From a virus, in the IMG/VR virus record IMGVR_UViG_3300025853_000838, positions 1 to 20,688 of that record: a DNA stretch of 20,688 bases, one strand, 5' to 3'. The position numbers were made by a program, and so were the translations under genes. Within the stretch, counting starts at the first letter, position 1. Each line of letters opens with the position of its first letter. The notes under the pieces are model-generated. The model did no database searches. It was not told where the DNA came from and was given only the letters and a program-made list of their open reading frames with translations. Shown here in pieces: positions 9,350-16,536 of this stretch.

Positions 9350-10225
9350 ATGAAAGAGAAGTTACTTGTAAGTTTTAGCGGTGGAGAAACATCAGGATAT
9401 ATGCTTTATTGGATTTTAAACAATTGGCAAGATAAGTATGAGATAAAAGTTGTTTTTGCTAATACTGGAGAAGAAAATGAAGAGACTCTTTTATTTGTAG
9501 AAAGATGCGCTAATCTATTTAATATTGAAGTTATTTGGGTTGAGGGAGTTTTTCATAAAGAACACGGTAAAGGAACTACACATAAAATAGTAAACTTTGA
9601 AACGGCTACAAGGTCAAATAGACTTTTTGAAGAAATGATTCAGGTTTATGGAATACCAAACAATTCTTATCCTCATTGTAATAGAGAGTTAAAACTCCAG
9701 CCAATTAAAAGCTATTTAAGAAGTATAGGTTGGAAAGATTACTATACTGCAATTGGAATAAGGTATGATGAGATTGACAGAATAAACAGTAAAAGAAAAG
9801 AACACAAACTTCTTTATCCATTAGTAACAGAAGTAAAAACAACAAAGACAAAAGTGAACTCATGGTGGGATGAACAGCCTTTTAGATTAGAGTTAAAAGG
9901 TTATCAAGGCAATTGCAAAACGTGTTGGAAGAAGTCAGAAAAAAAACTTCTAAAGATTGCTTTTGAAGCTCCTGAAAAATTTAATTCTTTTAAGATCCTT
10001 GAAGAAGAGTATTCAAATTTTATCCCTGAATCAAGAAGTCTTGAAGGCAAATCTGATAATTATAAGATAACATTCTTTAGAAAAAACAGATCTGCTGAAT
10101 GGTATATTGAAAATGCCGTTGACTTAATTGTTAAAGATGATAGTTCTGAAACATCAGAGCAGCTTGATTTATTTGAAGAAAGCTGTGATATTTTCTCAAT
10201 GTGCGGAGACGACAATAACAATTAA
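9350..10225 (+). CDS. PP-loop ATP pyrophosphatase, PAPS-reductase-like
   Basis: A 291-residue protein with the PP-loop SFSGGETS (residues 8-15), then VVFANTGEENEET (34-46), PHCNRELKLQPI (109-119) and AIGIRYDEIDR (134-144), the order found in PAPS reductase/DndC-type N-type ATP pyrophosphatases. Cys110, the pair Cys189-x2-Cys192 (GNCKTCWKKS) and Cys279 and Cys285 near the end could ligate an iron-sulphur cluster. Such proteins activate a substrate by adenylation; relatives act in sulphate reduction, tRNA thiolation and DNA phosphorothioation. Genes of this type are common in phages but rarely understood. Here it sits between two replication genes, which favours a nucleic-acid role over sulphur assimilation. 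Fold confident, substrate unknown. Confidence 0.8.
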   Translation: MKEKLLVSFSGGETSGYMLYWILNNWQDKYEIKVVFANTGEENEETLLFVERCANLFNIEVIWVEGVFHKEHGKGTTHKIVNFETATRSNRLFEEMIQVYGIPNNSYPHCNRELKLQPIKSYLRSIGWKDYYTAIGIRYDEIDRINSKRKEHKLLYPLVTEVKTTKTKVNSWWDEQPFRLELKGYQGNCKTCWKKSEKKLLKIAFEAPEKFNSFKILEEEYSNFIPESRSLEGKSDNYKITFFRKNRSAEWYIENAVDLIVKDDSSETSEQLDLFEESCDIFSMCGDDNNN

Positions 10226-13437: not shown

Positions 13438-13605
13438 ATGGATGATGGAATTTTACAAGCAATAGAAAAAATAGATGTTCTTTTAGAAGCTTATCAAGCT
13501 AGACTTTGTACACAAAAGGATAATAGATCATTGAAACAAGGTTTTGACGATTTATGGTTTATTAAAGAACAACTTTGGAGAGTAGGAAAAATAGAAAACA
13601 ATTAA
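13438..13605 (+). CDS. Small helical protein (55 aa)
   Basis: ATG 13438 to TAA 13603-13605, one base after the previous stop and two bases before the next ATG, so it fits exactly between its neighbours. The product is helical and mildly acidic in the first half (MDDGILQAIEKIDVLLEAYQ), with Trp-rich sequence at the end (DDLWFIKEQLWRVGKIENN). Function unknown. Confidence 0.65.
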   Translation: MDDGILQAIEKIDVLLEAYQARLCTQKDNRSLKQGFDDLWFIKEQLWRVGKIENN

Positions 13606-13607
13606 AT

Positions 13608-14303
13608 ATGAAAAGGAAAGAAATAGAAAAATTCAACAAAGCTAACGGTCAACAAATTAGTAATAGACCTATCACTAAATCAAATTTTGATTTGAACGTA
13701 ATTAACTTTGATATAAAAGGTTATAAACATGCTAAAGAAGCTAACGATATTATCGGGGTTGCTCATCATTTAGGTAGTATTCTACACGCTGTTTTATCCT
13801 GTTCTGTTGAACACGGATTAGAAATGAGCCCTATATTTGAAGTTATCAACGATGAACATATCAATTTTATCAAGAACGGAGAATATGAAGTTAGAGATAG
13901 GATCAAAGGAGCTTTATCTTACTCTATTCAGTATGATGGAGCAGTAACTGATCCAAATAAAAGAGTTAAGGACATTGACGTTGAGGTTGAGAAATATGTA
14001 ACAACTGTTGTTGACTGTGTTGCTAATTACTTTGATGTAACTGTAAATGCTTTATGTGGAGAGAGTAGAAAAAACCCACTCCCAGTAGCTAGACACTTGA
14101 TCAGTTACTTTTGTTTTGAGAGATACATTTCTTACTCTCAATTTGGTCCTATATTAACTAACATTATTAATAGGGATAGAACAACCTTTATACACGGTAA
14201 TAAAAAAATCGCAGAAGGTATGCCTTATGACTCTAAACTTAGAGTAGCTGTTAAAGAGATTGAAGATCAAATAAAAAGAACACTATTACAATTAAATTGT
14301 TAA
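13608..14303 (+). CDS. DnaA domain IV-containing replication-initiator-like protein
   Basis: ATG 13608 is preferred over an in-frame ATG at 13575, which overlaps the previous gene. The product has 231 residues. Residues about 132-201 match the DnaA C-terminal DNA-binding domain: VVDCVANYFDVTVNALCG, ESRKNPLPVARHLISYF, and the signature region INRDRTTFIHGNKKI (187-201; DnaA has RDHxTVxHxxxKI). The AAA+ ATPase of DnaA is absent. In its place residues about 50-92 (HHLGSILHAVLSCSVEHGLEMSP...) look like the second half of a MazG-type helical domain without its acidic metal ligands, a weak likeness. The protein probably binds DnaA-box-like DNA, to start phage replication, to regulate, or to interfere with host initiation. 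Confidence 0.75.
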   Translation: MKRKEIEKFNKANGQQISNRPITKSNFDLNVINFDIKGYKHAKEANDIIGVAHHLGSILHAVLSCSVEHGLEMSPIFEVINDEHINFIKNGEYEVRDRIKGALSYSIQYDGAVTDPNKRVKDIDVEVEKYVTTVVDCVANYFDVTVNALCGESRKNPLPVARHLISYFCFERYISYSQFGPILTNIINRDRTTFIHGNKKIAEGMPYDSKLRVAVKEIEDQIKRTLLQLNC

Positions 14304-14364: not shown

Positions 14365-14598
14365 ATGAAAGTACAAGATCTAAGAAAAGAATTGTCAAAC
14401 GGAATCACAGACTTTGCATTTATTAAAAAGGACGGTTCAGTAAGAATAGCTAAAGGTACTACGAATTTAACCTTTGTTCCAGTAGAAAAACATCCAAAAG
14501 GAACAGGGAAAGCGAGTGACAAAGTTTTAGCTTACTTCGATTTAGAAAAAGATAACTGGAGATGTCTATCAGTTAACACGGAATTTGTAACAGCTTAA
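14365..14598 (+). CDS. DUF2693-like small SH3-barrel protein
   Basis: A 77-residue protein with the pattern I associate with DUF2693 of Bacteroidota plasmids and phages: LRKELSNGITDFAFIKKDGSVR (6-27), AKGTTNL (29-35), HPKGTGKASDKVLAYFDLEK (43-62) and a Trp-Arg pair (WRCLSV). Short beta-strands with Gly turns suggest an SH3-like barrel. No function is established for the family as far as I know. It has its own strong promoter (P3), suggesting that it is needed early or in quantity; a DNA- or RNA-binding role is possible. Confidence 0.72.
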   Translation: MKVQDLRKELSNGITDFAFIKKDGSVRIAKGTTNLTFVPVEKHPKGTGKASDKVLAYFDLEKDNWRCLSVNTEFVTA

Positions 14599-14607
14599 TA
14601 AACCAAT

Positions 14608-15009
14608 ATGAATATTTTAGAAAAAGCAAATGAGATCGTGAACGAACGATCAGAAGAAAAAGAAAGACAGTATGGACCGTTTCAGCAGTGTATGCTTAAA
14701 ACGGCTAAATTAGCCTCTATAATGAGCAATAAAGAGATTTCTATAGTAGATGCTTATAATGTGTTAGTGGCTCTTAAAATGGCTCGTCAGAGCTATGCCC
14801 ATAAAGAAGATAACTTACTTGACGCTGTGGCTTATTTAGGGTCCTTAAATAACTTCTTAGAAAAAGAAGGGAGCCCTAATAACAGACTAAGTGATGAAGA
14901 ATACGACGAAGCCTACGAAAAAACTTTGAGGCCTAAAACAGCTTTTGAAAAGTTTGATGAGGATTACGAAAAGACATTGGGGTATAAAATGAGTAATAGA
15001 CATAGGTAG
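14608..15009 (+). CDS. DUF6378-like protein
   Basis: The protein (133 aa) has its conserved part in residues 1-87: EEKERQYGPFQQCMLKTAKL, IVDAYNVLVALKMARQSYAHKEDNLLDAVAYLGSL (47-81). This 'ERQYG-F...K...A-YLG' arrangement is the DUF6378 pattern known from tailed phages, an all-helical domain. Beyond residue 88 two similar acidic segments occur (DEEYDEAYEKTLRPKTAFEK and DEDYEKTLGYKM), a small internal repeat. The gene sits directly before the thymidylate-synthase homologue with one base between stop and start, which hints at nucleotide metabolism; unproven. Confidence 0.72.
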   Translation: MNILEKANEIVNERSEEKERQYGPFQQCMLKTAKLASIMSNKEISIVDAYNVLVALKMARQSYAHKEDNLLDAVAYLGSLNNFLEKEGSPNNRLSDEEYDEAYEKTLRPKTAFEKFDEDYEKTLGYKMSNRHR

Positions 15010-15010
15010 T

Positions 15011-15790
15011 ATGAATACTTACGAAGAAAACTATTCGGCAGCTATACACTTAGTGGCTAAGAAAGGAGAAAAAATAAATTCCAGGAATGGAAAGGTTCGC
15101 CAATTAACAGGAATCCAGATTAGGGCCAATCTAAGGGAAGGTTTTCCCATTGTAACAGGTAAAAAGATTTTTCCTAAAAGTATATTTGTTGAGGTTGAGT
15201 GGTTATTAAGAGGAGAAACAAATGTAAAGTTTCTTCAAGAAAGGGGCGTTACCATTTGGAATCAATGGGCAAAAGAAGATGGTGATTTAGGACCAGTTTA
15301 TGGTAAACAAATCAGGGATTTTGAAGGGGTTGACCAACTTAAAAACCTTATTAAAGATCTTAAGTCTAACTATACTTCAAGAAGACACCTAATAAGTATG
15401 TGGAACCCTATTAGAATTAACGAGATGGAACTACCTCCTTGTCATTATGCTTTTCAATTAGTTACTTACCCGGACCATATTGATATTGTCGTATCAATGA
15501 GGTCTTTAGATTTATTTATTGGATTGCCTTATGATGTAGGAATGTACGCCACTATTTTATCTATAATAGCTAAAGAACTTAATAAAAAACCTGGTGAAGT
15601 CATTATAAACGCAGCAGCTTGCCATTTATACGAGGAGCATGTTTCAAAAGCAGCGATTTATGCGGGGCGTAAAAAGAAAGCCTTACCAACTTTAGTAAAC
15701 TGTCCAAAGTTTAGTGAGTTCAGCTATGATAAGATGATTTTAGAAAACTATAATCCGGATTCAAGATTAGAAGTAAAAGTGAAAAAATAA
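15011..15790 (+). CDS. Thymidylate-synthase-fold enzyme, probably a dCMP hydroxymethylase
   Basis: A complete 259-residue thymidylate-synthase homologue: EVEWLLRGETN (Glu63), IWNQWAKEDGDLGPVYGKQIR (82-102), SRRH phosphate contact (123-126), LPPCHYAFQLV with catalytic Cys144, MRSLDLFIGLPYDVGMYA (163-180) and HLYEEH with His205 and Tyr207. In dTMP synthases the residue after 'GLP-aromatic' is Asn (E. coli N177); here it is Asp175. T4 dCMP hydroxymethylase has Asp179 there, and the Asn-to-Asp change in L. casei enzyme shifts preference to dCMP. The likely reaction is therefore dCMP plus methylene-tetrahydrofolate to 5-hydroxymethyl-dCMP, or 5-methyl-dCMP as in XP12-type phages. Codons such as CGC, CCC, GCC and CGT are commoner than in nearby genes, hinting at separate origin. 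Homology is certain, substrate inferred. Confidence 0.85.
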   Translation: MNTYEENYSAAIHLVAKKGEKINSRNGKVRQLTGIQIRANLREGFPIVTGKKIFPKSIFVEVEWLLRGETNVKFLQERGVTIWNQWAKEDGDLGPVYGKQIRDFEGVDQLKNLIKDLKSNYTSRRHLISMWNPIRINEMELPPCHYAFQLVTYPDHIDIVVSMRSLDLFIGLPYDVGMYATILSIIAKELNKKPGEVIINAAACHLYEEHVSKAAIYAGRKKKALPTLVNCPKFSEFSYDKMILENYNPDSRLEVKVKK

Positions 15791-15802: not shown

Positions 15803-16123
15803 ATGGAATTAAAAAACGAATTTAGCTCAATTAGAGAATGGGCAAAAGACAAAGGAATCTTCGAAAAAGGAGATGTAAAGACACAAACTTTAAAGCTTTA
15901 TGAAGAAGCTGGAGAATTATCAAAAGCAGTGCTAAAAGATGATATTCCAGAGATCATTGATGCTATTGGTGATTGTGTTGTAGTACTAACTAACGTAGCT
16001 GAGTTAGCTAAGATCAAGTATGGAATTGATATTACTTTAGAATCTTGTGTTAATGAGGCTTATAGTGTTATTGCTAAGCGTAAAGGTAAAATGGAAAACG
16101 GAACATTTGTAAAAGAAGCCTAA
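15803..16123 (+). CDS. MazG-like nucleotide pyrophosphohydrolase
   Basis: A 106-residue all-helical protein with the MazG/dCTPase metal-binding pattern: KLYEEAGELSKAV (31-43; Glu34, Glu35, Glu38, the EExxE motif) and EIIDAIGDCVVVL (50-62; Asp53 and Asp57, the ExxD-like motif), then the dimer helix YGIDITLESCVNEAYSVIAKR with the usual KGKM end. Single-domain MazG-like enzymes hydrolyse an NTP or dNTP to the monophosphate and pyrophosphate; the superfamily includes dCTP pyrophosphatases. Directly behind the dCMP-type hydroxymethylase gene, a dCTPase/dUTPase role that supplies dCMP is an attractive reading, though unproven. The stop overlaps the next ATG. Confidence 0.82.
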   Translation: MELKNEFSSIREWAKDKGIFEKGDVKTQTLKLYEEAGELSKAVLKDDIPEIIDAIGDCVVVLTNVAELAKIKYGIDITLESCVNEAYSVIAKRKGKMENGTFVKEA

Positions 16124-16536
16124 TGAGAAGATACGTTGCTAAAATAGATTTGTCTGATTTTAATAATAGATCTACCGGGGAACTTGGGGAGCTAGCTTTC
16201 AAAAGCTGGTTCCTTAAGAACTTTCAAGGTGAAACTATTCATGATCAGTCGTTAGATAGAGATTACATGGGAATTGATTTTGCTTGTAATAAAGGTTACA
16301 CTTACCAAGTCAAAGCTACTTCTAAAAAAACCTACACCTTTAATTGCTCTTTAGAAAGTCTCTCTAAACATTTAAGGGCAGACTTCTATGTATTTATTCA
16401 AATTAAGGATAAATACGCTTATATTGAAGGTATTTACAGTGAAGACTATGTAAAAGCAAATATAAAAGAGAGTTATAAGTATAAGAACACTTTTGTTTAT
16501 GCAAAGGATTTATTACAACAAAAATTATTTAATTAA
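16123..16536 (+). CDS. PD-(D/E)XK superfamily nuclease (137 aa)
   Basis: The protein carries the restriction-nuclease-like core early in the chain: STGELGELAFKSWFLKNF (helix with Glu20 and Glu23), RDYMGIDFAC with Asp52, and GYTYQVKATSK with Gln62-Val-Lys64, that is an E...D-x9-QxK site where Gln replaces the second acid, as in several branches of the superfamily. A short alpha/beta half follows (ADFYVFIQIKDKYAYIEGIY). Typical roles are host DNA breakdown, mismatch or junction cleavage. It is translationally coupled to the MazG-like gene, so a nuclease acting on unmodified host DNA is conceivable. Confidence 0.7.
   Translation: MRRYVAKIDLSDFNNRSTGELGELAFKSWFLKNFQGETIHDQSLDRDYMGIDFACNKGYTYQVKATSKKTYTFNCSLESLSKHLRADFYVFIQIKDKYAYIEGIYSEDYVKANIKESYKYKNTFVYAKDLLQQKLFN

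Follow-up and report, generated by a model that had tools for sequence, protein, structure and literature searches.

A phage thymidylate synthase homologue with aspartate at the substrate-selecting position: a predicted dCMP methylase beside a MazG-like protein

Results

The gene and its neighbours

The stretch of DNA analysed here (the window) is 20,688 bases long, about one third of them G+C, and makes up one IMG/VR virus record. On its forward strand, at positions 15011 to 15790, it carries an open reading frame of 259 amino acids, from ATG to stop, for an enzyme of the thymidylate synthase (TS) fold that we predict to be a dCMP C5-methylase. Residues 7 to 257 match Pfam family PF00303 (E 1.4e-71), and the features of this superfamily are evident in the full-length match, the catalytic cysteine and the arginines of the SRR motif. 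All four PHROG and all eight NCBIfam matches also bear the name thymidylate synthase (one NCBIfam model, TIGR03284, is above its cut-off), so that automatic annotation would call the gene ThyA, much as an earlier note on this DNA had anticipated. Nearly all of the similar solved chains are likewise thymidylate synthases (among 60 listed of 123).

The fold landmarks described in that note are found in the translation, namely the nucleophile Cys144, the motifs SRRH (123-126) and HLY (205-207), and the segment GLPYDVGMYA containing Asp175. The equivalents of Glu58, Tyr94 (here Tyr97), His207 and Tyr209 are kept; Leu141 and His145 correspond to Leu143 and His147 of the E. coli enzyme, and Trp83, Trp86 and a C-terminal tail ending in VKVKK are present. 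Asp175 aligns with E. coli Asn177, and the asparagine that marks dTMP-forming synthases at this position is thus absent. A sequencing error is unlikely, because four further IMG/VR contigs, one of them (G001) of 37,650 bases, encode an identical protein. Chance is unlikely too: in a scan whose query alignment was Asp-type, and from which the best 80 among 595 confirmed loci were taken, the nearest 16 besides the window (15 different proteins, with 48-59% identity) all carry Asp, as does the next one, L265, at 42% identity. Kept across relatives, Asp at position 177 is hence a feature of an Asp177 group. Met163, which corresponds to Gln165 in E. coli and is Met also in T4 gp42, was considered as a second mark of dCMP specificity and rejected, because Asn177 synthases of Paenibacillus and others carry Met there too.

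Immediately upstream, at 14608-15009 on the same strand, lies the gene for a DUF6378 protein (PF19905, 2.6e-10). It adjoins the TS gene in 18 of 18 related loci, with 42-77% identity, and over its first 86 or so residues it is the best conserved member of the cassette among close relatives. A search of 50,697 phage records gave no match to the window's DUF6378 protein at E 1e-5, and its structural model, which is of intermediate confidence (mean pLDDT 70), gave no structural match at E 0.001. That it might be another MazG-type enzyme was considered and rejected, the profile comparison being empty and no PDB relative being found at E 1. Just upstream of the cassette, at 14365-14598, the window also encodes a WYL_2 Sm-like protein (PF10902, 2.1e-19).

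Downstream of the TS gene, at 15803-16123 on the forward strand, lies the gene for a MazG-like nucleotide pyrophosphohydrolase (Pfam MazG, 2.4e-7, over cut-off; PHROG MazG-like, 7.4e-33), a predicted dCTPase partner that would convert dCTP to dCMP. Its homologues adjoin the TS gene in 17 of 18 related loci and are 50-71% identical in the alignment. Residues E34, E35, G37, E38, E50, D53 and D57 are invariant in 13 MazG-like sequences, and the window protein has the EExxE ... ExxD arrangement that we take to be the metal-binding pattern of MazG. The nearest solved chains (1vmg, 2yxh and 2gta) are named as hypothetical or MazG-related proteins.

An optional member of the cassette, a 137-residue protein with a D..D..Q-V-K pattern, is encoded at 16123-16536, again on the forward strand. 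It follows the MazG gene in 7 of the 18 related loci and occurs also near three Asp-type TS genes of another subclade (L022, L121 and L087). The protein has no Pfam match, and its low-confidence model (mean pLDDT 55) gave no structural match at E 0.001. Aligned by eye, its pattern is, we presume, reminiscent of PD-(D/E)XK nucleases, and this motif prompts the idea that the protein might be a nuclease. Close relatives thus share the order DUF6378 protein, Asp-type TS and MazG, sometimes followed by the nuclease-like protein, while window genes beyond the cassette are patchy in the 18 related loci, many of which are short fragments (Erf-like in 4, exonuclease in 7, terminase in 3).

Relatives and phylogeny

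The Asp version of the substrate-selecting motif, used as a pattern, matched at least 119 stretches in viral contigs, and an open reading frame with a TS profile was found at all 119 loci taken from these matches. The matched Asn pattern gave at least 120 stretches, both totals being lower bounds and no measure of relative frequency. The alignment scan that yielded the 595 confirmed viral loci, of which the best 80 were used, relied on conserved stretches other than the selecting motif in the window TS and five close relatives, all Asp-type, and shares some contigs with the Asp pattern scan. In bacterial and archaeal genomes, 68 of the 69 placed TS genes (among the best 80 of 330) are Asn-type and one (L372) is Asp-type. 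No isolated phage with an enzyme at 60% or more identity to the window TS or to that of L063 was found in 50,697 phage records, and among seven phage TSs compared only that of the uncultured phage MedDCM-OCT-S28-C10 has Asp. In this phage (AP013540.1, locus L412) the Asp-type TS gene lies amid genes annotated as NTP pyrophosphohydrolase, dTMP kinase and dCMP deaminase, and the arrangement reads as a more complete form of the same scheme, one that brings its own kinase.

A FastTree phylogeny of 362 sequences, with the column of position 177 kept, places the window TS in a 62-member clade composed only of Asp-type enzymes (support 0.76). In a second tree of 80 representatives below 62% identity, from which that column was removed, the window TS falls in an all-Asp viral clade (20 of 20 representatives; 100/91) that branches out of the TS-like stem, and within it in a group of six rows (100/99). 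At a deeper level the window TS belongs to a clade of 70 rows (100/99), and AXL1 gp63 falls outside it, in a clade of six rows (100/99). The window TS does not group with T4 gp42, which serves as the outgroup on a very long branch and whose own place is unsure; bootstrap values had not settled in this tree. At least six changes between Asp and Asn are needed on it. The earlier note had considered that the enzyme might sit among dTMP synthases with unrelated Asn-to-Asp changes; instead, it belongs to a deep, conserved Asp group with neighbours of its own. Isolated Asp177 enzymes nested among Asn-type ones also occur (L115:1194-2009 and L098:6303-7115), neither of them with an adjacent MazG or DUF6378 gene; these natural single-site changes would be good test cases for substrate switching.

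Neighbourhoods of Asp-type and Asn-type genes

Adjacency was scored with profiles built from the cassette, the window itself being left out. Among the loci listed, a MazG gene directly adjoins the TS gene in 112 of 147 Asp-type viral loci versus 2 of 137 Asn-type ones. The former comprise 114 loci from the Asp pattern scan (at least 119 matches), 32 from the alignment scan (best 80 of 595) and AXL1; the latter comprise 115 from the Asn pattern scan (at least 120 matches), 19 from the alignment scan (best 80 of 595) and three others. The corresponding figures for the loci listed are 101/131 versus 2/134 below 95% identity and 103/132 versus 2/110 where both flanking genes are in view; with both flanks in view they are 51/72 versus 2/75 below 75% identity and 18/30 versus 1/34 below 62%. 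Broken down by Asp subclass, again among the loci listed and with one bacterial Asp locus included, MazG adjoins the TS gene in 57/71, 24/27, 15/19 and 16/19 loci. The cassette profile finds it in none of seven Xp12-like and none of five T4-like loci listed; the AXL1 TS gene nonetheless adjoins an annotated nucleotide pyrophosphohydrolase.

A Pfam census of both flanking genes at 36 random loci per type, drawn from 72 Asp-type and 75 Asn-type loci, points the same way. Counting a protein under every family it matches, the 72 flanking proteins of Asp-type genes include 23 MazG, 22 PRA-PH, 19 DUF6378, 3 dUTPase and 3 dCMP deaminase matches and no dihydrofolate reductase (DHFR). DHFR accounts for 14 of the 72 flanking proteins of Asn-type genes, and MazG, PRA-PH and DUF6378 are not among the families listed for these (25 of 26). 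Few independent origins, however, underlie the association of Asp with MazG. When it was tested by paired comparison on the tree, two independent pairs lay on well-supported branches, and the test had no power.

Residues and genes bearing on the product

The earlier note had left the product open between 5-hydroxymethyl- and 5-methyl-dCMP. In the portions of PMC6400193 available to us, hydroxymethylases are proposed to be marked by a Ser-x-Tyr motif and by an Asp, sometimes a Glu, at the third position ahead of the catalytic Cys; T4 gp42 is described as having Val85 in place of Trp83 of E. coli TS and as lacking the C-terminal tail, and its D145N mutant as giving no product. In our alignment T4 gp42 and SPO1 gp29 (the latter bearing the annotation dUMP hydroxymethylase) have Asp three before the Cys and AXL1 gp63 has Asn, while the window TS has Leu141, as does E. 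coli TS, and so lacks the Asp or Glu of the hydroxymethylases. The window TS also has Pro-x-Tyr, with Pro95 at the place of T4 Ser94, both Trp residues and a His after the Cys. The Leu, the two Trp, the His and the tail therefore favour methylation, and the absence of an Asp three before the Cys makes the methyl product the likelier half of the alternative.

The gene content of viral records of 32-68 kb bears on the same question. A methylase yields dihydrofolate, which DHFR recycles, whereas a hydroxymethylase would need no DHFR. No DHFR over cut-off was found in 28 Asp-type records, among which there is one weak sub-threshold match, as against 11 of the 22 Asn-type ones. Such a lack would be in line with a hydroxymethylase, or else with reliance on the DHFR of the host; on its own it does not exclude methylation, because the four Xp12-like records among the 28 have no DHFR over cut-off either. 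Carbamoyltransferase was found in 0/28 Asp-type versus 4/22 Asn-type records, counts that give no support to the hydroxymethyl route. Viral records of four Asn-type loci (L146, L155, L184 and L189) carry both DHFR and carbamoyltransferase, and they differ in this from the pattern of modified contigs in PMC8670742, where, in the portions available, carbamoyltransferase accompanies TS in modified contigs only.

The rest of the phage

The window terminase comes closest to those of two isolates, Flavobacterium phage 11b (52%) and Cellulophaga phage phi10:1 (51.5%), and a flavobacterium may therefore be the host. On the 37.65-kb contig, 56 of 70 open reading frames were searched, the 14 excluded being mostly ones that overlap others. 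Pfam matched 25 families in these 56, with no DHFR, DNA polymerase, nucleotide kinase, dCMP deaminase, DNA methyltransferase or second TS; a single TS was also the rule in 15 of 15 Asp-type records examined. In the nearest isolates, 11b and phi10:1, DNA methyltransferases are annotated. GC-containing palindromes of four bases are avoided in the window phage (-0.61), though less strongly than in 11b (-1.35) and phi10:1 (-1.16); for six-base palindromes its avoidance (-0.90) is close to that of phi10:1 (-0.91; 11b, -1.32). Among the loci listed, 147 Asp-type and 135 Asn-type loci show no difference in palindrome avoidance (p 0.32), and the comparison does not clearly favour modification of virion DNA or protection from restriction.

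Other genes of the phage deserve mention in their own right. The window encodes a PAPS-reductase-family protein at 9350-10225 (Pfam, 1.5e-8; PHROG phosphoadenosine phosphosulfate reductase, 9.6e-45), and one of the 56 contig open reading frames, perhaps this same gene, matches the PADLOC model SspD (4e-9). A DnaA C-terminal DNA-binding domain is encoded at 13575-14303 (PF08299, 3.2e-9), and an annotated DnaA protein is present also in phi10:1 (gp034). Outside the window, on this 37.65-kb contig (L250:901-2928), two open reading frames that by eye resemble family-2 glycosyltransferases flank a hexapeptide-repeat transferase; they have no Pfam or PHROG match at E 0.01 and could serve the decoration of virions or of DNA.

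Discussion

The prediction of the earlier note that dCMP is the substrate is well supported by the all-Asp clade, by the coupling to MazG and by the association of Asp177 with modified cytosine in the available portions of PMC8670742. From residues, clade and gene coupling, all read in the sequence, we infer substrates, product, incorporation and protection as follows. In a phage lineage, the substrate-selecting Asn of a thymidylate synthase would have been replaced by Asp. The MazG-like neighbour would hydrolyse dCTP to dCMP, thereby removing unmodified dCTP and supplying the substrate, and Cys144 would attack C6 of dCMP while Asp175 recognises and protonates N3 of the cytosine. Methylene-tetrahydrofolate would provide the one-carbon unit, and a closed active site like that of TS would end the reaction by hydride transfer, giving 5-methyl-dCMP. 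For the incorporation of 5-methylcytosine into its DNA the phage would rely on kinases and a DNA polymerase of the host, none having been recognised among its own genes, and the modified base may blunt cytosine-specific restriction. We consider it rather probable that the enzyme is indeed a dCMP C5-methylase with a dCTPase partner. Several observations count against it: the lack of DHFR over cut-off in the 28 Asp-type records, the few independent origins behind the Asp-MazG association, the missing MazG neighbour of L115, L098 and, with the cassette profile, the Xp12-like and T4-like loci, the carbamoyltransferase counts, the continued avoidance of GC-containing palindromes, the usual His at position 147, and the fact that neither a dNMP kinase nor a DNA polymerase family was found. 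Since the TS has the Asp residue, and the neighbour, expected of a cytosine-modifying enzyme, cytosine in the DNA of this phage is probably modified.

The closest competitor, which we nonetheless hold to be doubtful, is a dCMP hydroxymethylase, in which water rather than hydride would end the reaction and the resulting 5-hydroxymethyl-dCMP might later be glycosylated in DNA. Asp177 would fit dCMP equally in this case, and the lack of DHFR over cut-off in the 28 Asp-type records points in its direction, as do the glycosyltransferase-like frames beside the hexapeptide transferase, although these match no Pfam or PHROG family at E 0.01. The active site argues otherwise, for it has neither the signature Asp or Glu nor the Ser of T4 gp42 and keeps the Trp and the tail that gp42 has not; carbamoyltransferase, moreover, is missing from all 28 records. 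An ordinary dTMP synthase that tolerates Asp and boosts the thymidylate supply of an AT-rich phage would agree with the TS-like active site, the family matches and the 34% G+C. We judge it improbable, given that Asp is kept across a deep clade, that neighbours differ sharply (DHFR for Asn-type genes, MazG and DUF6378 for Asp-type ones) and that the change from Asn to Asp can switch preference from dUMP to dCMP (PMC8670742, which, in the portions available, cites N-to-D mutants that make 5-methyl-dCMP).

Slighter still is the likelihood that the MazG-TS pair acts on nucleotide pools, for instance by lowering dCTP or a signalling nucleotide, so as to hinder host replication or defence rather than to alter phage DNA. 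The persistence of palindrome avoidance would be in keeping with such a role, as would the failure to recognise any polymerase or dNMP kinase family in the phage. An intact TS active site is not obviously needed for it, however, and the published link of Asp177 enzymes, in the available portions of PMC8670742, is to modified-cytosine DNA itself. Returning to the dCMP methylase, it may be extended to a compact, shared cassette for cytosine substitution with an origin separate from the T4 and Xp12 systems. Such a cassette would comprise DUF6378, the TS-derived methylase, the MazG dCTPase and a PD-(D/E)XK-like nuclease, which would cut host DNA for want of the modification and leave the modified DNA of the phage intact, with complete reliance on host kinases and polymerase. 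Taken as a whole, we regard this scheme as unlikely.

If the methylase reading is true, a possibly sizeable share of the phage genes annotated as thymidylate synthase would encode cytosine-directed enzymes, and a single residue, in many cases along with an adjacent MazG gene, could serve to recognise them. The contrast of 112/147 versus 2/137 among the loci listed would then amount to a simple sorting rule, and in phages whose cytosine may be modified DUF6378 would emerge as a partner yet to be studied.

Comparison with known systems

The notion of Asp177 as a mark of cytosine specificity is already in print, since Asp177 has been published both in contigs with modified cytosine and in cytosine-directed enzymes. 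In the portions of PMC8670742 (MetaGPA) available to us, positions 177 and 147 are those that best separate modified from unmodified contigs among 433 TSs, and the TSs of modified-cytosine phage contigs have mostly Asp177; carbamoyltransferase, PRA-PH pyrophosphohydrolase and dCMP deaminase co-occur with TS, in many cases specifically where the contig is modified. Similarly, PMC5175136, as far as available, assigns Asp to the cytosine-directed and Asn to the uracil-directed enzymes of the TS family. The window TS resembles the environmental phage enzymes of MetaGPA in its Asp177, its neighbouring pyrophosphohydrolase (there PRA-PH, PF01503) and its origin in the phage fraction. The MetaGPA contigs, however, were enriched by an enzymatic test for modified cytosine, whereas the window is known from its sequence; position 147 differs in the modified contigs of that study and is the usual His here; and the carbamoyltransferase that accompanies TS there is found in none of our 28 Asp-type records. 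With four of 22 Asn-type records carrying it, our counts are in tension with what is available of PMC8670742 and fit a simple Asp rule poorly.

Among isolates, the DNA of Xp12 has 5-methylcytosine for all its cytosines and the related AXL1 resists most of the restriction enzymes tried, according to the available portions of PMC9206674, while for DLP4, another member of the group, resistance extended to every one of 36 enzymes (PMC6469090, likewise seen in part). AXL1 gp63, by analogy with its relative Xp12 a probable dCMP methylase, shares with the window TS the equivalent of Asp177, the GLPYDV motif and an adjacent pyrophosphohydrolase. It lies nonetheless on a distant branch, with Asn three before the Cys, Pro after it and a shorter tail, where the window TS has Leu and His, and the AXL1 cluster carries DHFR and dCMP deaminase, neither of which was recognised in the window phage. 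The dCMP hydroxymethylase T4 gp42 has Asp179 at the same site and shares the MRS-x-D motif, but differs in its Asp145, its Val85, the lack of a C-terminal tail and a very long separate branch, as against the Leu, Trp and tail of the window TS. Closest in design are the L. casei N229D and E. coli N177D enzymes, in which Asn likewise gives way to Asp in an otherwise TS-like site; these are single mutants made in the laboratory, and the window TS, if our reading is true, would be the natural counterpart of such dCMP methylases. Our literature search, which covered parts of the sources, found DUF6378 mentioned in print and no description of its function or of the DUF6378-TS-MazG cassette. The enzyme class is therefore already known, and what the present analysis adds to it is a TS-like, tail-bearing clade that combines Asp177 with His147, together with its cassette of DUF6378, MazG and the 137-residue protein.
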